Below, piece by piece: positions 3,336 through 55,785 of a stretch of DNA of 64,000 nt. The stretch is taken from positions 168,731,098 through 168,795,097 of the forward strand of contig NC_062217.1 of NCBI RefSeq assembly GCF_902686445.1. The letters are read 5' to 3'. How positions within the stretch are numbered: position 1 is the first letter of the stretch; every line of letters begins with the position of its first letter. Both the position numbers and the translations under genes were made by a program. Under the pieces are notes generated by a model. It was not told the DNA's origin. It searched no databases and saw only the letters and a program-made list of their open reading frames with translations. This DNA is from Sciurus carolinensis (lineage: Eukaryota; Chordata; Mammalia; Rodentia; Sciuridae).

Positions 3336-3959
3336 CTATTCCATCCACGAGTCCCAGCCTACCGTCCCATGGGGCCGCCTCCTCTACAAAGTCCTCCAGG
3401 GTTGAAGACCCAGCTCTACCTAGAGACCTCCAGAACTTTCCATGTCCTCGAATGTGAAGGGGTGCATGGTGCTTCCTTTTACCCACTCAGGAGAAATATC
3501 CACACCGGCACAGTGCCCGGCAGCGAGGGTGCTCTGCCAACGCCCGTGGTCAGCCTCTGCCAGGCCTGCAGGAGACCTGGCGACCGAGCTCTGGGTCTGG
3601 GGCTCCTGGTTCCACAAAGGCTCCTGTTTGTGACTGAGCCCAAGCAAGAAGCTGGACGTGCAGCCCAGAGTCCTGAGGCCACTGTCCAGAGGGACAGGAA
3701 CACGTGACCTGTCCAACTCCCTACCTAACAGAAGAAGTCTGCTGGGGGGACGGTGGAGAGGGTGGCCATCCCGAAGTCACTACCTCCCTGGTCCACGCAG
3801 GCCCAGACTGGGGGGCCGGGAGCGGAGAAGGTGGCGCACTGTCCCTCCCAGCATGCTTCTCCCGGGGCTCGGGGCCTGATATATGGCGTACACATTCCCT
3901 ACACCACCAGCTCCTCACCTCGAGAATAAAGGTCACTGTGAGCTTCAGCGGTTTGAGCT
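3336..3959. other. Unique DNA, no gene seen
   Basis: GC-rich sequence with overlapping chance frames on both strands. Nothing recognised. Confidence 0.4.
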
Positions 3960-4639: not shown

Positions 4640-4645
4640 GTCGAC
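4640..4645. other. Target-site duplication, left copy (GTCGAC)
   Basis: The six bases directly before the 5' LTR are identical to the six directly after the 3' LTR (11691-11696). This marks the integrase-generated staggered cut and shows that both proviral ends are original. Confidence 0.95.
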
Positions 4646-4780
4646 TGTCAGGGACCAAGAAGTTCTCATTCTGAGAACATTCTGACCTTTACAATAAGCA
4701 GCAGCGCCCCTCCCCCCTCCTGGCTGATAATTCTGACAGTATGGCGCCTATGGTGCCGTCCCTGCTTCTCTTCCGGGACT

Positions 4781-4826
4781 TCACCTTCCCGCCGTTGCGA
4801 ACCTCACCTTCCCGCCGGTGCGAACT
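4781..4826 (+). promoter_or_regulatory. 23-bp tandem repeat in U3 (enhancer-like)
   Basis: Two adjacent 23-bp units (4781-4803 and 4804-4826), each starting TCACCTTCCCGCC, differing at two positions. The GC-rich repeat sits about 80 bp upstream of the TATA box, where retroviral enhancers and promoter-proximal sites lie. The second copy is at 11428-11473. Function is inferred from position only. Confidence 0.6.
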
Positions 4827-4902
4827 TGCAGCCTATCAGGAGCCCAATAGAAGAACACAGCCAACCAGGCTGCACCTCGTCATACCCCTCATTCCCTGAG
4901 CA

Positions 4903-4910
4903 TATAAATA
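4903..4910 (+). promoter_or_regulatory. LTR TATA box (TATAAATA)
   Basis: A strong TATA motif within the 5' LTR. Transcription would start about 25-30 bases downstream, near 4932-4940. The 3' LTR has the same box at 11550-11557. Confidence 0.85.
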
Positions 4911-5045
4911 CCCCTGTGTGAACAATAAAAATTTGCAGCTTGATCAGAATTCCTGTCTTGCTGCCTCTCCCTGCATCTCTTGTCCCTTCATTCCTTCTCT
5001 CTTAGGTTTGCCTTTCCGCGTTGATGTCCCGCGGGTCGGGACAGT

Positions 5046-5063
5046 TGGCGCCCAACGTGGGGC
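5046..5063 (+). promoter_or_regulatory. Primer-binding site, tRNA-Lys1,2 type
   Basis: TGGCGCCCAACGTGGGGC begins two bases after the 5' LTR. It fits the 3' end of tRNA-Lys (CUU anticodon, Lys1,2), the primer used by Mason-Pfizer-type betaretroviruses. It is not the Lys3 primer of MMTV or the Phe primer of mouse IAP. An intact primer site is required for minus-strand DNA synthesis. Confidence 0.9.
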
Positions 5064-5200
5064 TCGAGCCTTTGTTTGAGAAGCGAACGCTGCCCTCTGG
5101 GGAAGACTTGGCCAAGCGGGATTCGGGATCGCCTCGGTGGACGCGACCGGGAGTCAGATCCAGGAGGAAATTGAGGCCAGCGCAAGGTGAGTGACGCACC
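5064..5200 (+). other. Retroviral leader before gag
   Basis: 137 bases between the primer site and the gag start codon. This is where dimerisation and packaging signals normally lie, though I cannot point to a specific structure. It ends with a consensus splice donor 15 bases before the gag AUG. Confidence 0.7.
5183..5191 (+). promoter_or_regulatory. Major splice donor (CAAG|GTGAGT)
   Basis: A near-perfect mammalian donor just upstream of gag, with the cut before 5186. In betaretroviruses a leader donor makes the spliced env message. It is kept although env is gone, and may pair with the acceptor at 10,813-10,814. Confidence 0.7.
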
Positions 5201-7321
5201 ATGGGACAAGCAGTTTCGTCACATGATTTGTTTCTGACGGGTCTCGAGGAGGCCCTCAAGACTCGGGGAGCGCGTGTTAAGAAAAAGGATTTAAGATCAT
5301 TCTTTTCATACATAGAGGATTTGTGTCCTTGGTTTCCCCTCGAGGGGTCAATTGATGGTAAAAGGTGGCTCAGAGTAGGAGACTGCCTCAAAGATTATTA
5401 TGAGACTTTTGGTCCTCAAAAGGTGCCTGTCACTGCCTTTTCTTATTGGAATTTAATTAATGAGATTCTTAAAAGCTCACCCTTTGACAGTGGTACTTTA
5501 AAACTTGTAAAGATTGGGGAGCAGGCAATGCAATCCACCTCTCGCCCCCCATCGGCATGCCCTTCGGTTAGTATTCAAATGCCCCCTACTAAGCCTTCTC
5601 AGGACCCTGGGACCCTCCCAGACCCCGGGAACCTCCCAGACCCCACCTTACCAAAAAAGTCCCCTAAAAGTCCCCCTAAGATTTATCCGGTTTTAAATCC
5701 CTATGATGACGTGACCCCAGAGGAGGAGGCTACCCTGGAGGAGGCAGCGGCTCGATACCATTCTCCAGACCTGCCACCTCTTAAAAATCCACCTCCCTCT
5801 TATATACCCCCTGCCTTTCGTGCTCCGGCCCTTCAGGGACCTACTGCCCCCCCAGACATTTTTTCCCCACTTCCCTTGCCTAATCTAACCCCTTTACGCG
5901 AGTCTCTCCAACATAGGCGGGAACAAATCCAACTTTTAAAAGAACTAAAAGCCCTTGATGCCGAGCTTCGCTCACTGGCCTTGGGCACGGAGTTAACACA
6001 AACTGGCCCAAGACCCCTCAATACTCGTAAGGTGAAGCCACGTGGTCAGCCTGTTCTTGCCTTTCCAGTCACTCGCAGTCAAGCAGATCAGCCCGCACAA
6101 ACTGAAGCAGAGAATTTAAAAGGAAGTCAGGAAGAGGAATCAGGGGAGGAACAAGAGGTAGAACCAGAGAGGGAACAAGAGGAGGACCAGGAATCAGGGG
6201 ATGAGGAGGAGCCCACCTCTGGACAGAGTGGAGCCCTTGGTTCTTATAAAAGGCTGAGCCTCCGCTTTCTTGAAAGACTTAAAAAGGCTTGTACACAGTA
6301 TGGCCCCACTGCACCTTATACACTGGCCTTGCTAGAGAACCATAGTACACAGTGGCTCACCCCTAATGATTGGAAATTTTTGGCCCGAGCCACCCTCAGT
6401 GCGGGTGACTTCCTGTTGTGGAACGCAGACTTTAGGGAATACTGTCGGGAAACTGCCCAAAAAAATTCAACCAAGGCTTCCTCTAAATCCTGGACCTATG
6501 TTAAACTAGTGGGTAATGCGCCATTTGATACTAACCCTAAACAGGCACGCTTTCCTACTGGGCTCCTAGCACAGGTTCAAACTGCTGGTTTGCATGCTTG
6601 GAGACGGCTCCCTCAAAAGGGCTCGGCCACCACCTCCCTAGCAAAAATTCGTCAGGGTCCTGACGAGCCTTACAGTGACTTTGTTGCCCGGCTTAATCTA
6701 ACTGCGGAGTGCTTACTTGGACCAAGTGAAAACGAGAGCTCCTTTGTAAAATATCTTGCCTTTGAAAATGCCAACCCAATATGTCAAGATGTTCTTCGGC
6801 CCCACAAAGATAAAGGGGACCTTTCTGACTTCATTAGGCTGTGTGCTGGGGTAGGAACAGCCCATGCCATGGGTCTCGCCATTGGTGCCGCCTTCACCAA
6901 GGCCCTTCACCACCCTGGCCCACGTACTTGCTTTACTTGCAAACAACCTGGCCATTTTGTGCGAGACTGCCCAACAGGGAAACTGGGTCAAGGACCCATA
7001 TCTCCTCAAACAGGGGCTAAACCACCTCCGCTCACCCTTTGCCCTAAATGTGGTAAAGGTCGCCACTGGGCCAAGGAGTGTAGATCCAAGACCAATGCCC
7101 TTGGACAGCCTATTCCCTCTAACTTCTCGGGAAACTCCTCTCGGGGCCAGCCCCTGGCCCCGACCACCCCCAGAGCAAACCCAGGGGCAATAAGGTTTGT
7201 TCCCTCTCAGACTCCCAACCCAATCCAGGCTCCCTGTCCTTCTCCACAATCACCTCCCTCCAACGTGCTACCCCAGGCAGCGCAGGATTGGACCTCTGTG
7301 CCTCCACCGATACAATATTAG
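5201..7321 (+). CDS. gag: Gag polyprotein, intact (706 aa)
   Basis: Structural polyprotein (matrix, spacer region, capsid, nucleocapsid). It starts MGQAVS, a good N-myristoylation signal, so it should be membrane-targeted. Two late-domain motifs follow: PPSY at residues 198-201 and PTAP at 214-217. Next come a strongly acidic stretch (about 305-345) and the capsid with the major homology region at about 485-498 (QG..E....F..RL). The nucleocapsid has two CX2CX4HX4C zinc knuckles (577-590 and 614-627). The length is normal for a betaretroviral Gag and there is no stop or frameshift. The end overlaps the pro frame; the GGGAAAC slip site at 7129-7135 diverts a share of ribosomes into Pro. The AUG is the first good start after the leader. 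Product assignment is near certain; cleavage sites are not assigned. Confidence 0.97.
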   Translation: MGQAVSSHDLFLTGLEEALKTRGARVKKKDLRSFFSYIEDLCPWFPLEGSIDGKRWLRVGDCLKDYYETFGPQKVPVTAFSYWNLINEILKSSPFDSGTLKLVKIGEQAMQSTSRPPSACPSVSIQMPPTKPSQDPGTLPDPGNLPDPTLPKKSPKSPPKIYPVLNPYDDVTPEEEATLEEAAARYHSPDLPPLKNPPPSYIPPAFRAPALQGPTAPPDIFSPLPLPNLTPLRESLQHRREQIQLLKELKALDAELRSLALGTELTQTGPRPLNTRKVKPRGQPVLAFPVTRSQADQPAQTEAENLKGSQEEESGEEQEVEPEREQEEDQESGDEEEPTSGQSGALGSYKRLSLRFLERLKKACTQYGPTAPYTLALLENHSTQWLTPNDWKFLARATLSAGDFLLWNADFREYCRETAQKNSTKASSKSWTYVKLVGNAPFDTNPKQARFPTGLLAQVQTAGLHAWRRLPQKGSATTSLAKIRQGPDEPYSDFVARLNLTAECLLGPSENESSFVKYLAFENANPICQDVLRPHKDKGDLSDFIRLCAGVGTAHAMGLAIGAAFTKALHHPGPRTCFTCKQPGHFVRDCPTGKLGQGPISPQTGAKPPPLTLCPKCGKGRHWAKECRSKTNALGQPIPSNFSGNSSRGQPLAPTTPRANPGAIRFVPSQTPNPIQAPCPSPQSPPSNVLPQAAQDWTSVPPPIQY

Positions 7322-8082
7322 ACTCTATGCAAGGACCTCAAATAATACCCACTAGGGTTGTAGGCCCCCCTCCACCTCATATGTGTGCTCTTATTCTTGG
7401 GAGAGCTTCTACCACCTTACAAGGGGTTCAGGTCTTCCCTGGCATCATTGATAATGATTACACTGGAGAAATTAAAATACTGGCCACAGCTGTTAACGGA
7501 GTAGCTGCCATCCCTGCAGGAACAAAAATTGCACAATTAATACTCCTTCCCCTCAATTCAGGAAATTCACCAGGAAACACAGCCTCTTTAGGTTCCTCTG
7601 ATGTGTATTGGGTCCAACCTATCTCCCACAAAAGACCCACTCTTACCTTATTTATTGAAGGAAAGAAATTCCAAGGGATCCTAGATACTGGTGCGGACGC
7701 CACAGTTATTTCTCAAAAATATTGGCCATCAGAATGGCCCCTCACCTCATCACTAACTGACCTTAAAGGAATAGGGCAGTCAAGAAACCCCTTAGTTAGC
7801 TCCAGGGTGCTTAATTGGACTGACACAAAAGATAACACAGGGAATAAAGGAACCGTTACCCCCTTCGTTGTTCCTGATCTCCCTGTCAACCTTTGGGGAC
7901 GAGACATTCTAAGCCAAATGAAAGTTATTCTTGCTAGTCCCGACTCTTTAGTCACTCATCAAATGCTTCGTATGGGCTTTATCCCTGGTACAGGCCTTGG
8001 AAGGCTAGGACAAGGACAGGTTGAGCCTGTACAGCCCATACAAAAAACAGACAAATTTGGACTTGGGTATGTGGATTTTTAG
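7123..8082 (+). CDS. pro: Pro: dUTPase-protease with C-terminal G-patch, intact
   Basis: Made as a Gag-Pro fusion by -1 shift at 7129-7135; there is no start codon of its own, and the frame opens after the stop at 7120-7122. The first part is a dUTPase: GSAGLDLCA (from about 7276), GRAST, the motif with IIDNDYTGE (about 7443-7470) and KIAQL. It would lower dUTP during reverse transcription. The usual glycine-rich fifth motif looks diverged. Next is an aspartic protease with active-site DTGA at 7684-7695, acting as a dimer to process Gag and Pol. A G-patch (about 7970-8030) closes the protein. dUTPase plus protease plus G-patch is the betaretroviral arrangement. No stop interrupts it; it ends with TAG at 8080-8082, overlapping the pol frame. 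Confidence 0.95.
   Translation, partial: LLGKLLSGPAPGPDHPQSKPRGNKVCSLSDSQPNPGSLSFSTITSLQRATPGSAGLDLCASTDTILDSMQGPQIIPTRVVGPPPPHMCALILGRASTTLQGVQVFPGIIDNDYTGEIKILATAVNGVAAIPAGTKIAQLILLPLNSGNSPGNTASLGSSDVYWVQPISHKRPTLTLFIEGKKFQGILDTGADATVISQKYWPSEWPLTSSLTDLKGIGQSRNPLVSSRVLNWTDTKDNTGNKGTVTPFVVPDLPVNLWGRDILSQMKVILASPDSLVTHQMLRMGFIPGTGLGRLGQGQVEPVQPIQKTDKFGLGYVDF
7129..7135 (+). promoter_or_regulatory. gag-pro -1 frameshift slippery site (GGGAAAC)
   Basis: G GGA AAC lies in the correct gag register (codons GGA AAC). The pro frame has a stop at 7120-7122, so it opens just before this site, and is free of stops from here to 8080. The same heptamer type is used at the gag-pro junction of Mason-Pfizer-type viruses. 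Confidence 0.93.
7143..7188 (+). promoter_or_regulatory. Predicted frameshift-stimulating RNA pseudoknot
   Basis: Seven bases after the slip site, GGGGCCA (7143-7149) can pair with TGGCCCC (7155-7161), seven pairs. The five-base loop between them, GCCCC (7150-7154), pairs perfectly with GGGGC at 7184-7188. This is an H-type pseudoknot with the spacing typical of -1 signals. The second loop (22 nt) is longer than in the best-studied examples. Pairing is read directly from the sequence; stimulation is inferred. Confidence 0.8.
8073..8079 (+). promoter_or_regulatory. pro-pol -1 frameshift slippery site (GGATTTT)
   Basis: G GAT TTT directly precedes the pro stop codon TAG (8080-8082) and is in the right register. 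A -1 slip reads GGA TTT TTA and enters pol, which is open from 8025. It differs by one base from the MMTV pro-pol site. I find only a short stem just downstream (GGTC/GACC near 8087-8097) and no clear pseudoknot. Confidence 0.8.
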
Positions 8083-9323
8083 TGTCGGTCCCTGACCCTC
8101 CTGTACCCCATGCAGACAAAATTATTTGGGAAACTCAAACTCCTGTGTGGGTGGATCAGTGGCCCCTTACCCAAGAAAAATTAGAGGCTGCCTCCATGTT
8201 AGTACAGGAACAGTTGACAGTCGGCCATGTGGAACCCTCAACCTCACCCTGGAACACTCCTATTTTTGTTATTAAGAAGAAATCAGGCAAATGGCGCCTT
8301 TTACAGGATTTGCGCGCTATCAATAAGGTTATGCGCCCGATGGGGGCATTACAGCCAGGCATCCCTACACCGGTAGCTATTCCTAGGGACTATTATAAAA
8401 TGGTCATCGACTTAAAAGATTGCTTTTTTACTATTCCTTTACATCCTGATGACAGACCCTATTTTGCTTTCAGCCTCCCCCGCATCAATTTTCAGGGCCC
8501 TATGCAAAGATTTCAATGGAAGGTCCTTCCCCAGGGTATGGCTAACAGCCCTAGTCTTTGCCAAAAATATGTTGCTCAAGCAGTAGACCCTGTGAGAGAG
8601 CGGTGGCCACAAGTTTATATATTACATTATATGGATGATTTGTTAATTGCTGCACCTAATACCTATGATCTTAACAATTGTTATTTGGATCTCTATAAAG
8701 CCCTTACTGCCTTGGGACTTCAGATAGCCCCTGATAAGGTTCAAACACAGGACCCCTACACCTACTTGGGCCTCAAACTTCAAACTAATCAAATTCAAAT
8801 CCCTAATATACAATTTCGTGTGGACCATCTCCACACTCTTAACGATTTCCAAAAACTACTGGGGGATATCCAATGGCTAAGACCATATTTAAAACTACCC
8901 ACCTATGTGCTTTTGCCTCTTAATGATATTTTAAGGGGAGATTCTGACCCTTCTTCTCCTCGAGAGCTTACTCCCGAGGCACGGCAAGCATTAATTCAAG
9001 TCACAGAAGCCATCGCTCAACAATTTGTTACACAAATATCTTATAACCTTCCTTTGGTTTTGGTTATATTACACACCCCTCATACACCCATGGGACTATT
9101 CTGGCAGCGGGATCCACATTTTAAAAATAAGGGTTGCCCCTTGCTCTGGGTTCATTTGCCCGCCACATCCTCTAAAGTTATTGCTGTCTATCCTGCTCAG
9201 GTAGCTTCTATCATTATTAAAGGTCGCTTGCTTTCTCGACAACATTTTGGCAAAGACCCTGATAACATTCTGATTCCATACACTAAGGATCAAACCCAAT
9301 TTTTGCTACAGACGAGGGATTAA
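8073..9323 (+). pseudogene. pol: pol part 1: reverse transcriptase, ended by a nonsense codon
   Basis: RNA-dependent DNA polymerase, reached by the -1 shift at 8073. The fingers and palm are complete: the first catalytic Asp in VIDLKDCFF (codon 8409-8411), the LPQG motif (about 8527-8538), and YMDD at 8628-8639 with both catalytic aspartates. Thumb and connection sequence follow without frameshift. A TAA at 9321-9323 stops translation just before the RNase H domain, and the same frame continues afterwards. A polymerase without RNase H and integrase could be made, but not a full Pol. Nothing else in this part looks damaged. I classify pol as a very young pseudogene; programmed readthrough is possible but not supported by any signal I can see. 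Confidence 0.93.
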
Positions 9324-10748
9324 TGGGGTATTGCTCTATCAGGCTTTTTGGGAATAATCGATAACCACCTTCCCAATGACCCCCTTTTGCATTTTGCTCA
9401 GTTACATCCATTTATTTTTCCTCGGGTTACTTGGAAGGCTCCTATTCCACAAGCCCTTACTGTTTTTACAGATGGCTCCAGCAATGGCCGTGCAGCCTTT
9501 GTTGTTGATAATCAGCCTACCACCTTTGACACTGCTTATCCATCAGCACAGCTTGTAGAATTGTTTGCTATAACACAAGTCTTTATGACATTTTTTGATA
9601 AACCTATTAATATTTATACAGACAGTGCTTACATTGCCCATTCTGTGCCCCTATTGGAGATTTCACCCGCCATTAAGGCTTCCTCCAACGCAGCCTTTTT
9701 GTTTAACCAGCTTCAACAACTAATTCAGGCTAGAAAACATCCATTTTTCTTAGGACATATTAGAGCACATTCTGATCTTCCCGGTCCCCTATCACGGGGT
9801 AATGCTCAGGCTGATGCAGCCACTCGGTCCCTTTTCCCAGTTCTTATTGGATCCATCCAAGAGGCCACAGATTTACACAAACTTCACCACTTAAATTCTC
9901 AGAGCCTTCGGTTACTCTGTAAAATTACCAGGCAACAAGCAAGGGAAATTGTAAAAGCGTGTCCTGCTTGCGTTGTCTCCCTTCCTATTCAACATCTGGG
10001 TGTTAACCCTCGAGGATTACTGCCCAATCAGATTTCGCAGATGGATGTTACTCACTTTCCTGAATTTGGGAAAACAAAGTACATACATGTTTCCATAGAT
10101 ACCTTTAGTGGCTTTATTTTTGCATCACCGCATTGCGGAGAAGCTACCAAGGATGTCATTTCTCATCTTGTCTCAGCCTTTTCCATAATGGGAAAGCCAG
10201 CACATACTAAGACAGATAATGACCCTGCATATACCAGTACCAAGTTCAAACAGTTTTGTGCCACTCTTCAAATCTCTCATACTACTGGAATTCCATATAA
10301 CCCTCAAGGTCAAGGCATTGTGGAACGTGCACACCTCACCTTAAAAACCTGGCTTACCCGCCTTAAGGCCTCTTCCCTTGCATTTACCACTCCCAGGGAT
10401 CGCCTTAATCATGCATTATTTGCTCTTAACTTTCTTACCCTAGACAATGAAGGACATTCGACCGCAGACAGACATTGGCATCCCTCTTCTAATTCTGCTC
10501 GCCCATCTGTTATGTGGCGCGATCCTTTAACAAATAAATGGAAAGGCCCAGATCCCGTCCTCATTTGGGGACGAGGCTCAGCTTGTATTTTAGATCAAGA
10601 ACAAGCAGCCCCAAGATGGTTACCAGAACGCCTGGTCAAACAGGTCAATGATTTACCACAACCCAGGGATGGAAACCTTCCCCCTGAGGATGAATCTTCC
10701 TCTCTTATAGATGCAGCCGACAATCTATGCGAAAAATCCCCTGAATGA
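9324..10748 (+). pseudogene. pol: pol part 2: RNase H and integrase, downstream of the nonsense codon
   Basis: Same frame as the reverse transcriptase, open from 9324 to TGA at 10746-10748. RNase H keeps its four acidic residues (codons at 9471 Asp, 9558 Glu, 9621 Asp, 9813 Asp). Integrase has the HHCC zinc site (His at 9876 and 9888; Cys at 9960 and 9969) and the D,D(35)E core: Asp 10044, Asp 10215, Glu 10323. The C-terminal domain with WKGPDPVL and GRGS is present. One oddity is that the codon two after the second catalytic Asp (10221-10223) is Asp where retroviral integrases nearly always have Gly. There is no start codon in a good context, so this part is probably untranslated from this copy unless the TAA is read through. 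Confidence 0.92.
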
Positions 10749-10841
10749 CAGACCCTGTGACTGCACACCATTGCTTCTCTGGATAATGGCTGCCTGTTCA
10801 CTGCTCTCCCACAGCCATGCAGGACTTGAGGACCCTGCTAA
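10749..10841 (+). other. pol-env junction with a retained splice acceptor
   Basis: The bases between the pol stop and the env tail hold a pyrimidine-rich run ending CTCTCCCACAG (acceptor AG at 10,813-10,814). Three bases on is an AUG (10817) opening only a short frame. With the leader donor this would give a small spliced RNA carrying the env remnant and the CTE. The env deletion junction probably lies here or near 10,842, as a stop (10839-10841) abuts the env tail frame. Confidence 0.55.
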
Positions 10842-11018
10842 GGTCCCCTCCTTTGCTTGCTGCTTATTGTATCTATAGGTCCTTTGATATTCAACAAGAT
10901 CATGGCTTTTCTTAAAGCTCAAATTGAGGCTATACAGGCGAAACCTATTCAGGTTCATTACCATCGACTGGAGATGATGGATCGTGATGGTGATCTTAAA
11001 AGACCATCACCCCTGTGA
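10842..11018 (+). pseudogene. env: Envelope transmembrane-tail remnant (58 codons)
   Basis: An open frame of 58 codons ending TGA at 11016-11018. It reads as a hydrophobic segment (LLCLLLIVSIGPLIF) followed by a cytoplasmic tail (NKIMAFLKAQIEAIQ, then a VHYHRLE segment). A membrane span running into a GP-hydrophobic-N motif and a basic amphipathic tail resembles the end of gamma/type D transmembrane proteins. The surface subunit, fusion peptide and ectodomain are all missing and there is no start codon. It shows that the ancestor carried an env in the normal place. Family assignment is from residue pattern only. Confidence 0.72.
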
Positions 11019-11170
11019 GCTGAACTGGACAGCCAATGACGGGTAAGATTCGTGAGAGCTCATACCAACCTAAGACAGGAAATGAGGGCCAGAGCCTCAT
11101 TATCCAATGACGGGTAAGGATGTTGCTCTGCCACGGACAACCTAAGACAGGCGCAGTTCCCGAGGGATTG
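11001..11170 (+). ncRNA. Constitutive transport element (CTE)-like RNA export element
   Basis: Two copies of a left motif CCAATGACGGGTAAG (11033-11047; 11104-11118) alternate with two copies of a right motif AACCTAAGACAGG (11067-11079; 11139-11151). Between the inner pair a perfect 7-bp hairpin forms (11081-11087 with 11095-11101, loop 11088-11094). A middle stem pairs 11051-11059 with 11125-11135. This gives a long hairpin with two internal loops of like sequence in opposite orientation, the known layout of the Mason-Pfizer virus CTE. That element binds host NXF1/TAP and exports unspliced RNA. The motifs and the segment after them agree closely with that element as I remember it. It sits between env and the 3' LTR, the expected place. 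Confidence 0.9.
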
Positions 11171-11278
11171 TCACTCCAGCCCTATACCTGTTCAGGCAAG
11201 CTGTGCCCCCGTCTCGCCACATAACCTCTATCACCCCCTTAAAATATGGCTATTGAAAAATGGTCAATAATTTTATAT
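11171..11278 (+). other. Proviral 3' non-coding spacer
   Basis: About 110 bases between the CTE-like element and the polypurine tract. It becomes AT-rich toward the end. I see no reading frame or structure in it. Confidence 0.6.
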
Positions 11279-11292
11279 AAGAAAGGGGGAAA
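11279..11292 (+). promoter_or_regulatory. Polypurine tract (plus-strand primer)
   Basis: AAGAAAGGGGGAAA lies directly against the 3' LTR. It resists RNase H and primes plus-strand DNA synthesis. With the intact primer-binding site and LTRs, all cis-acting elements for reverse transcription are present. Confidence 0.92.
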
Positions 11293-11690
11293 TGTCAGGG
11301 ACCAAGAAGTTCTCATTCTGAGAACATTCTGACCTTTACAATAAGCAGCAGCGCCCCTCCCCCCTCCTGGCTGATAATTCTGACAGTATGGCGCCTATGG
11401 TGCCGTCCCTGCTTCTCTTCCGGGACTTCACCTTCCCGCCGTTGCGAACCTCACCTTCCCGCCGGTGCGAACTTGCAGCCTATCAGGAGCCCAATAGAAG
11501 AACACAGCCAACCAGGCTGCACCTCGTCATACCCCTCATTCCCTGAGCATATAAATACCCCTGTGTGAACAATAAAAATTTGCAGCTTGATCAGAATTCC
11601 TGTCTTGCTGCCTCTCCCTGCATCTCTTGTCCCTTCATTCCTTCTCTCTTAGGTTTGCCTTTCCGCGTTGATGTCCCGCGGGTCGGGACA
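11293..11690 (+). repeat. 3' LTR of the provirus (398 bp)
   Basis: Same length and, by eye, the same sequence as 4646-5043. TATA box at 11550-11557; AATAAA at 11571-11576, which would end the proviral transcript. As an intact promoter it could also read out into the flanking host DNA from about 11,580. Confidence 0.97.
11571..11576 (+). terminator. Proviral polyadenylation signal (AATAAA)
   Basis: AATAAA in the 3' LTR, 13 bases after the TATA box; cleavage is expected 10-25 bases later. The matching hexamer in the 5' LTR (4924-4929) probably lies upstream of the cap site and so is not transcribed. That would avoid premature polyadenylation, as in retroviruses with a short R. Confidence 0.8.
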
Positions 11691-11696
11691 GTCGAC
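11691..11696. other. Target-site duplication, right copy (GTCGAC)
   Basis: Exact match to 4640-4645. The pre-integration site would have read aggc-GTCGAC-ggca. The six bases also happen to be a restriction site, but their exact position against the LTR ends fits a duplication, not a cloning scar. Confidence 0.95.
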
Positions 11697-54953: not shown

Positions 54954-55785
54954 TGGAGGCCCTCGGAGGTGCCCCGGAGGAGGCCCTCAGAGGTGCCCAG
55001 GCGGAGGCCCTCAGAGATGCCCCGGAGGAGGCCCTCAGAGGTGCCCAGGAGGAGGCCCTCAGAGATGCCCCGGAGGAGGCCCTCAGAGGTGCCCAGGCGG
55101 AGGCCCTCAGAGTGCCCAGGAGGAGGCCCTCAGAGTGCCCAGGTAGAGGCCCTCAGAGGTGCCCAGGGGGAGGCCCTCAGAGGTGCCCAGGAGGAGGCCC
55201 TCAGAGTGCCCAGGAGGAGGCCCTCAGAGGTGCCCAGGAGGAGGCCCTCAGAGTGCCGAGGAGGAGGCCCTCAGAGTGCCCAGGTAGAGGCCCTCAGAGG
55301 TGCCCAGGGGAGGCCCTCAGAGATGCCCAGGAGGAGGCCCTCAGAGGTGCCCAGGCGGAGGCCCTCAGAGTGCCCAGGAGGAGGCCCTCAGAGTGCCCAG
55401 GTAGAGGCCCTCAGAGGTGCCCAGGTGGAGGCCCTCAGAGATGCCCAGGGGGAGGCCCTCAGAGGTGCCCAGGGGGAGGCCCTCAGAGGTGCCCAGGCGG
55501 AGGCCCTCAGAGTGCCCAGGAGGAGGCCCTCAGAGGTGCCCAGGCGGAGGCCCTCAGAGTGCCCAGGAGGAGGCCCTCAGAGTGCCCAGGTAGAGGCCCT
55601 CAGAGGTGCCCAGGTGGAGGCCCTCAGAGATGCCCAGGAGGAGGCCCTCAGAGGTGCCCAGGGGGAGGCCCTCGGAGGTGCCCAGGCGGAGGCCCTCGGA
55701 GGTGCCCAGGTGGAGGCCCTCAGAGTGCCCAGGCGGAGGCCCTCAGAGTGCCCAGGGGGAGGCCCTCGGAGGTGCCCAGGCGGGA
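54954..55785 (+). repeat. 24-bp minisatellite (about 35 units)
   Basis: Units of the form GAGGTGCCCAGGMGGAGGCCCTCA, with 23-base variants lacking one G and variable third-block bases. Units of 24 bp keep a frame open while 23-bp variants shift it, which is why two long frames of PSE/ALRGAQ-type repeats run through it. No coding evidence. Confidence 0.95.

Follow-up and report, generated by a model that had tools for sequence, protein, structure and literature searches.

We have analysed a 64,000-nucleotide stretch of the genome of Sciurus carolinensis (contig NC_062217.1, positions 168,731,098 to 168,795,097 of the forward strand; hereafter the window) in which an endogenous provirus carries, at 11011-11166 of the window, an RNA element that by sequence, predicted structure and position is a constitutive transport element (CTE) of the Mason-Pfizer monkey virus/simian retrovirus (MPMV/SRV) type. 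Our interpretation, in which we have high confidence, is that this two-loop element would recruit two NXF1:NXT1 export receptors, allowing unspliced RNA to be exported, and that it belongs to a cassette which has probably been exchanged among groups of endogenous retroviruses (ERVs).

The provirus spans positions 4646-11690, with all features between its ends read on the forward strand, and is flanked by a 6-base target-site duplication, GTCGAC (4640-4645 and 11691-11696, no strand assigned). Its two long terminal repeats (LTRs), each of 398 nt (4646-5043 and 11293-11690), have no mismatch between them, and a two-copy 23-bp repeat is present within both (4781-4825 and 11428-11472). At the mammalian substitution rate of 2.2e-9 per site and year, this identity corresponds to an age of at most ∼1.7 million years (95% upper limit), although gene conversion could make the provirus appear younger. 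The primer binding site, TGGCGCCCAACGTGGGGC, is read from the sequence at 5046-5063 and is taken by us to be that for tRNA-Lys1,2; a predicted, consensus-like splice donor (AAG/GTGAGT, 5184-5192) lies between it and the gag ATG at 5201. The gag open reading frame (ORF; 5201-7321) encodes matrix, capsid and two zinc knuckles according to Pfam and solved-structure matches, the M-PMV matrix protein being among the strong matches of the latter kind. Pfam likewise identifies dUTPase, aspartic protease and G-patch in the pro ORF (7123-8082), reverse transcriptase (RT) and thumb in the first part of pol (8025-9323), and RNase H and integrase in the second (9324-10748), the two parts being divided by a single in-frame stop (9321-9323) after which the frame continues. 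Downstream of pol lie a candidate splice acceptor, which is pyrimidine-rich and ends in CACAG (10799-10814), an env remnant (10842-11018), the CTE and a polypurine tract (11281-11292) that immediately precedes the 3' LTR.

A preliminary description of this DNA had considered env to be gone and the CTE to be the main feature tying the family to type D viruses. env is indeed mostly lost, but not wholly, as the last 58 codons of a gamma-type transmembrane (TM) protein stay in place and end in a TGA stop (11016-11018) which reaches the element's outer stem. The 58-residue frame matches TLV_coat at 17.7 bits, under the curated cut-off of 22.5, and 31 of 48 residues are identical between this tail and that of the Env in the JGI-sourced protein P0049. 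P0049, in which a Gag matrix start is joined to Env, is kin of the window's provirus family and resembles the product of an in-frame internal deletion. Ten other sampled loci of the same group differ at env: four (L011, L012, L063, L077) align co-linearly with the window through the deletion, three (L016, L029, L072) have ∼300 nt extra at the deletion site, two (L065, L075) retain part of env, and L021 covers, in two frames, nearly all of the Env part of P0049, which is itself incomplete. The env-less form is therefore one of several states, found at five places including the window. Nor is the CTE the main tie to type D, as Gag (M-PMV matrix), Pro (dUTPase, G-patch), the primer site and the env tail also provide such ties; the type D betaretrovirus features present comprise a betaretroviral Gag, dUTPase plus G-patch in pro, the primer site taken as Lys1,2 and, in the env remnant only, a gamma-type TM. 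Gag shares 77% identity with a marmot entry and 38% with simian retrovirus 8. In a tree of 23 Gag rows, the window plus 22 chosen by hand from 51 matches, it pairs with the marmot entry (Shimodaira-Hasegawa-like approximate likelihood ratio test, SH-aLRT, 85), and a JGI entry joins next (100).

The element itself is built from two left motifs (L1, 11033-11047; L2, 11104-11118) and two right motifs (R1, 11067-11079; R2, 11139-11151), which had been described as alternating around a hairpin and which are all exact and ordered L-R-L-R. Individually, at up to three mismatches, these motifs are no commoner than chance, with 2 left motifs found against 1.46 expected and 23 right motifs against 21.2, and it is therefore the exact ordered arrangement that counts. 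The minimum free energy (MFE) fold of the 170 nt from 11001 to 11170, at -50.4 kcal/mol, forms the two opposed internal loops that the preliminary description envisaged, placing L1 opposite R2 in the outer loop and R1 opposite L2 in the inner loop. In both predicted loops AAGACA faces AAUGAC with all bases unpaired: AAUGAC at 11035-11040 (5' side) faces AAGACA at 11144-11149 (3' side) in the outer loop, and AAGACA at 11072-11077 (5' side) faces AAUGAC at 11106-11111 (3' side) in the inner one. The two sites are therefore turned end for end, which is the two-fold design of MPMV/SRV. Between the loops, an inter-loop stem pairs 11047-11066 with 11118-11138, and beyond the inner loop a terminal hairpin occupies 11078-11105, the hairpin and both strands of the stem being supported by covariation as well as by the MFE fold. 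Outer stems pair 11011-11015 with 11161-11166 and 11017-11022 with 11154-11159; GAACUG at 11022-11027, fully complementary to 11154-11159, provides an alternative 5' strand for the second of these. When the motifs are fixed and the spacers shuffled, the window scores a z of -2.97 and none of 200 shuffles equals its inter-loop plus hairpin pair count. The env stop lies at the 5' edge of the element and the polypurine tract lies downstream. The earlier CTE reading is thus borne out by the two-fold predicted loops, a match to the SRV-1 half-CTE, the site between env tail and polypurine tract, and covariation among copies.

Copies are numerous in the host. The half-site, GACGGGTAAG-N10-40-CCTAAGACAGG, occurs at 3885 exact places (1896 + 1989) in the 2.8-Gb host assembly and the L-R-L pattern, tandem forms included, at 1366 (658 + 708), with no match to the reversal of either. 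In viral contigs the L..R pattern had no match and the related R..L pattern had two (L082, L083), that in L083 sitting inside an open frame on a contig which resembles phage or bacterial DNA; a 257-Gb prokaryote collection gave three R..L matches, with titles that are all bacterial. Chance was rejected as a source on the basis of the empty reversed-pattern controls and of the prokaryote collection, where only these three matches arose. The 100 listed matches of the 3885 represent 73 elements, all of them fetched and all lying within the first 121.6 Mb of contig C1, from which we extrapolate that the host genome may hold ∼2,800 elements with at least one perfect half-site. All four motifs can be placed in 71 of the 73 loci, the exceptions being L068 and L073. 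Among the L-R-L matches listed there is also a dense cluster of similar C1-type CTE variants at G000:C2 ∼119-123 Mb, and at G000:C2:73039822-73047922 four CTE matches spaced exactly 2673 bases apart resemble a tandem array of a proviral piece.

Pairing was examined after setting aside cluster C4, five loci of a different design, which left 67 rows including the window, 62 of them distinct. The segments between motifs were aligned separately and scored against a 40-pair structure with the loops held open. In 14 representatives, namely the window and one row for each upstream/core/LTR cluster combination (some LTR starts were mis-set in the labels, which affects the choice of rows and not the pairing counts), 91.2% of cells are paired, compensatory changes support the stems at 25 of the 40 pairs, and 54 extra pair types occur. 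Sliding the partners by 1-3 columns leaves 35-45% of cells pairing, and of 500 column shuffles 0, 0 and 3 reach the observed paired share, double changes and pair types, respectively. In all 62 rows 88.9% of cells are paired, with 25 double-changed pairs and 64 extra types, values reached by 0, 1 and 380 of 500 shuffles. Spacer shuffles over 13 elements give z values of -2.97 to -5.50, the inter-loop plus hairpin pairs being equalled in 0 of 200 shuffles for 12 elements and in 1 of 200 for L009. In unconstrained MFE folds of the 62 distinct elements the hairpin always forms, the inter-loop stem does so in 59 and the loop-flank pairs do so in 48. Across the 67 rows the inter-loop strands measure 21-23 and 20-22 nt and the hairpin segment 28 to 35, the near-constant inter-loop length being as expected if the site must fit a symmetric NXF1:NXT1 platform (PMC4330390).

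The motifs themselves do decay. Among 93 half-sites whose partner half is perfect, 56 of 1953 motif bases differ, although 54 of these half-sites come from 27 elements with two perfect halves and are thus not free of search selection. CpG transitions account for 20 of the 56 changes (L3 C>T, 15; L4 G>A, 5), and L10 G>T (9) and R11 G>A (8) also recur. The preliminary description had argued from the perfection of both motif copies to recent function; the perfection holds, but the argument is weak for the window copy because its LTRs are identical and little time has been available for change. The real evidence is in the data from many copies rather than in the window copy, NXF1-type loop motifs recurring in a large set from the host genome in which the stems change in compensated pairs.

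Several results weigh against this interpretation. The energy of the 170-nt fold is ordinary in comparison with dinucleotide shuffles (z -1.38; 19 of 200 fold as well), and in the shorter pieces used for the pairing and spacer-shuffle tests the window's outermost stem yields to a local 3' hairpin. Rfam, in which the presence of a CTE family was not checked, gave no match at the gathering score, and none of the four weak hits with E values of up to 10 is named as a transport element. Only 10 of the 62 unconstrained MFE folds leave every base of both AAGACA strands unpaired, and the median penalty for keeping the loops open is 1.0 kcal/mol; it does not exceed 2 in 44 of 62 elements and rises to 4.8 at most. 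The count of extra pair types is uninformative in the 62 rows because so many shuffles match it, the structure was derived from the scored sequences and is therefore favoured over its slid versions, and the sample was picked for one perfect half-site with relatedness only partly removed. In addition, as pol is interrupted, full Pol would not come from the window provirus alone.

A second design is found in the C4 loci (L014, L042, L050, L053, L064), which carry L-hairpin-R twice in tandem and not one two-fold element. Folded alone, eight of the ten units pair GGGU, or a variant, with ACCU around a short hairpin, giving one loop site per unit. The exceptions are the first units of L014 and L050, and in unit 1 of the remaining C4 loci the AAGACA strand is partly paired. 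In U10 (L059, 40.0 bits) and, weakly, in U1 (L044, 24.7 bits, under the cut-off of 29.6), open frames that precede the CTE match GP41, and in U4 (L053, 141 bits) and U8 (L052, 324 bits) such frames match TLV_coat; no Env match was obtained in U2, U5 and U6, in each of which one frame was tried. On these profile matches, CTEs accompany beta-type as well as gamma-type Env. PMC3621094 leaves open whether the CTE predated gamma env or arrived with it, and the occurrence of CTEs with both kinds of Env favours either a CTE before gamma env or exchange, without settling the question.

The surprising part is the mosaic spread of the cassette. Fixed flanks (310 nt upstream, 280 nt downstream) and cores were compared by BLASTN, and clustering yielded six core types, that of the window being C2. 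The 21 C2 rows fall into five sets by their flanks: D3/U3 (11 with the window), D4/U4 (2), D5/U5 (4), D7/U6 (2) and D8/U7 (2). C2 cores match in all 292 ordered between-set pairs, at 82-99% identity over 114-116 nt. The upstream flanks match in 16 of the 292, U5 with U7 only (71-82% over 104-118 nt), and the downstream flanks in 36, namely U5 with U7 (86-90% over 85-91 nt) and U3 with U6 (20 of 44 pairs, 33 nt). Surroundings are therefore unlike in most C2 sets, with U5 and U7 partly related. The integrase pieces of the U4, U5 and U7 C2 carriers share 30-54% identity with that of the window, far below the similarity of the RNAs, and in the U6 C2 carriers the integrase comparison with the window gave no match.

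The clearest junctions are in set D4/U4, in which L030 carries core C2 and L053 carries C4. Their flanks are 95% alike over 310 nt and 93% alike over 190 nt, their cores match at only 77% over 43 nt, and the core of L030 is 99% identical to that of L028 (D5/U5), whose flanks show no match. The left junction lies in or beside GACGGGTAAG and the right in or beside CCTAAGACAGG, and downstream L030 retains a second half-site of the other design, suggesting that C2 came in. Over 600 nt upstream, L030, L032 and L068 show 91.6-95.5% similarity, and as their loci are far apart the hybrid provirus has multiplied. In these three hybrids a full CTE cassette occupies the place of the first half-unit of the tandem form, the other unit remaining downstream in L030 and L032. 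Within U6, L061 (C6) and L040 (C2) resemble each other at 92% over 184 nt of upstream flank and at 76% over 120 nt of downstream flank, with cores alike over 16 nt only.

Exchange of the cassette between ERV groups is the best reading of these sequence mosaics, its direction and mechanism being what we infer from them. The presence of one cassette type in otherwise unlike ERV groups would be explained by crossovers within the conserved motifs or beside them, the junctions being seen directly in one case. Template switching may have caused the crossovers, and gene conversion between proviruses would leave the same mosaic picture. We lean slightly towards a fuller account, in which a free-moving export cassette of ∼115 nt jumped from one ERV family to another, the LTRs and upstream regions of these families being unrelated, the loop motifs served as crossover joints, the CTE predates or is independent of env capture, and a tandem half-CTE was replaced by the symmetric form in one family. 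In the open literature, as searched through titles and the starts of abstracts and with most subscription papers outside it, no such exchange is described apart from that in a SERV-K lineage, which acquired a different transport element (PMC11379458).

With respect to function, the RNA of 11011-11166 would recruit two host NXF1:NXT1 export receptors, and unspliced provirus RNA would thereby leave the nucleus. The genomic RNA is likely to be handled as intron-containing, and so held back unless exported, because the provirus retains both a consensus-like donor ahead of gag and a possible acceptor ahead of the env tail. The CTE would overcome this nuclear retention without any viral protein; NXF1 binding and export by the window element are inferred. 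Another explanation, which we regard as improbable, also makes the element a true CTE by descent but has it act mainly in the cytoplasm, where bound NXF1 would promote the loading of gag RNA onto polysomes, a mode proposed for an element in gammaretroviral pol. According to PMC4174252, pol sequences of murine leukaemia virus (MLV) and the xenotropic MLV-related virus XMRV raise gag RNA on polysomes ∼100-fold, with cytoplasmic RNA increasing no more than three-fold; a stem-loop with AAGACA inside pol raises Gag synthesis when present in four or eight tandem copies, and the MPMV CTE could replace pol. SRV/MPMV CTEs, which the window element matches in loops and layout, are nevertheless described as direct export elements in PMC7551171 and PMC10746203, and the cytoplasmic and export roles are compatible with each other.

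Slightly less probable still is that the element is a passenger, its perfect loops reflecting a young insertion and rapid expansion of the family and not a working RNA. The identical 398-nt LTRs mean that the window copy by itself carries little information, and half-sites in other copies do decay, often through CpG transitions as noted above. Against this, loop motifs recur across ERV groups with unmatched flanks while both strands of the stems change, and pairing would not be preserved in a passenger. Chance repeats or a local duplication mimicking a CTE can be dismissed as extremely unlikely, for although the single motifs are no commoner than chance, the exact ordered half-site occurs in thousands of forward and no reversed places, and the L1-R1 and L2-R2 spacers are unlike in sequence and therefore do not represent a simple duplication.

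To our knowledge, CTEs of the MPMV/SRV kind are known from few viruses, and the rules for their loops and spacing therefore rest on little natural variation. The host provides over a thousand natural CTE copies of several types within one genome. Its asymmetric two-hairpin form could test the need for the two-fold symmetry which is matched by the NXF1:NXT1 dimer in the PMC4330390 model, and the copies bear on the question raised in PMC3621094 of whether a CTE was present before gamma env was acquired. The mosaics suggest that RNA export signals switch partners between retrovirus lineages in the manner of a gene module. Elsewhere in the window, 54955-55780 holds a minisatellite with a 24-bp unit in ∼35 copies, more than one of its frames being open.

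Comparison with known systems begins with SRV-1, for which half-CTE oligonucleotides are given in PMC4330393: the right motif is identical at 13 of 13 positions and the left, on the other strand, at 13 of 15. This comparison covers the half-CTE oligonucleotides only, and the virus lineage differs, as seen in the low Gag identity to simian retrovirus 8. The window CTE resembles that of SRV-1/MPMV in its two loops in two-fold arrangement and in its position downstream of env and before the polypurine tract. The same source describes a conserved AAGACA in each symmetrical unit, which accommodates one Tap-p15, and in the PMC4330390 model the NXF1:NXT1 dimer offers CTE RNA a symmetric platform. Closer to the host, PMC7354474 describes GPDRV, a type D betaretrovirus of a sciurid, the prairie dog, with a TM like that of MPMV, and ERV-PDRV.1, which has no apparent env and is highly repeated in the prairie dog genome. 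Both are likely published kin of the window provirus, set alongside it by description. By its coordinates GPDRV has 265 nt separating env from the polypurine tract, enough to accommodate a CTE, and that text gives no hit for 'transport element' or 'export'.

Other likenesses are also by description. A CTE-like, NXF1-binding RNA of host origin resides in a retained intron of NXF1 (Li et al. 2006, cited in PMC11379458 and PMC4330390). Bat group VII endogenous betaretroviruses, a group distinct from the gamma-env group VIII, carry predicted Tap-binding elements (PMC3621094); these come from a motif search only, whereas the window CTE type has covariation and mosaic cassettes. The MER11 CTE of SERV-K, the MTE of MusD and the RTE of IAP are further RNA transport elements of retroelements (PMC11379458, PMC2674570). 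MER11 and the MTE are longer, complex RNAs, unlike the window CTE, and MER11 lacks NXF1-binding loops of the MPMV kind according to the SERV-K paper (PMC11379458). MER11 and the RTE lie near the 3' end, as does the window CTE, and the element of SERV-K was acquired by recombination.
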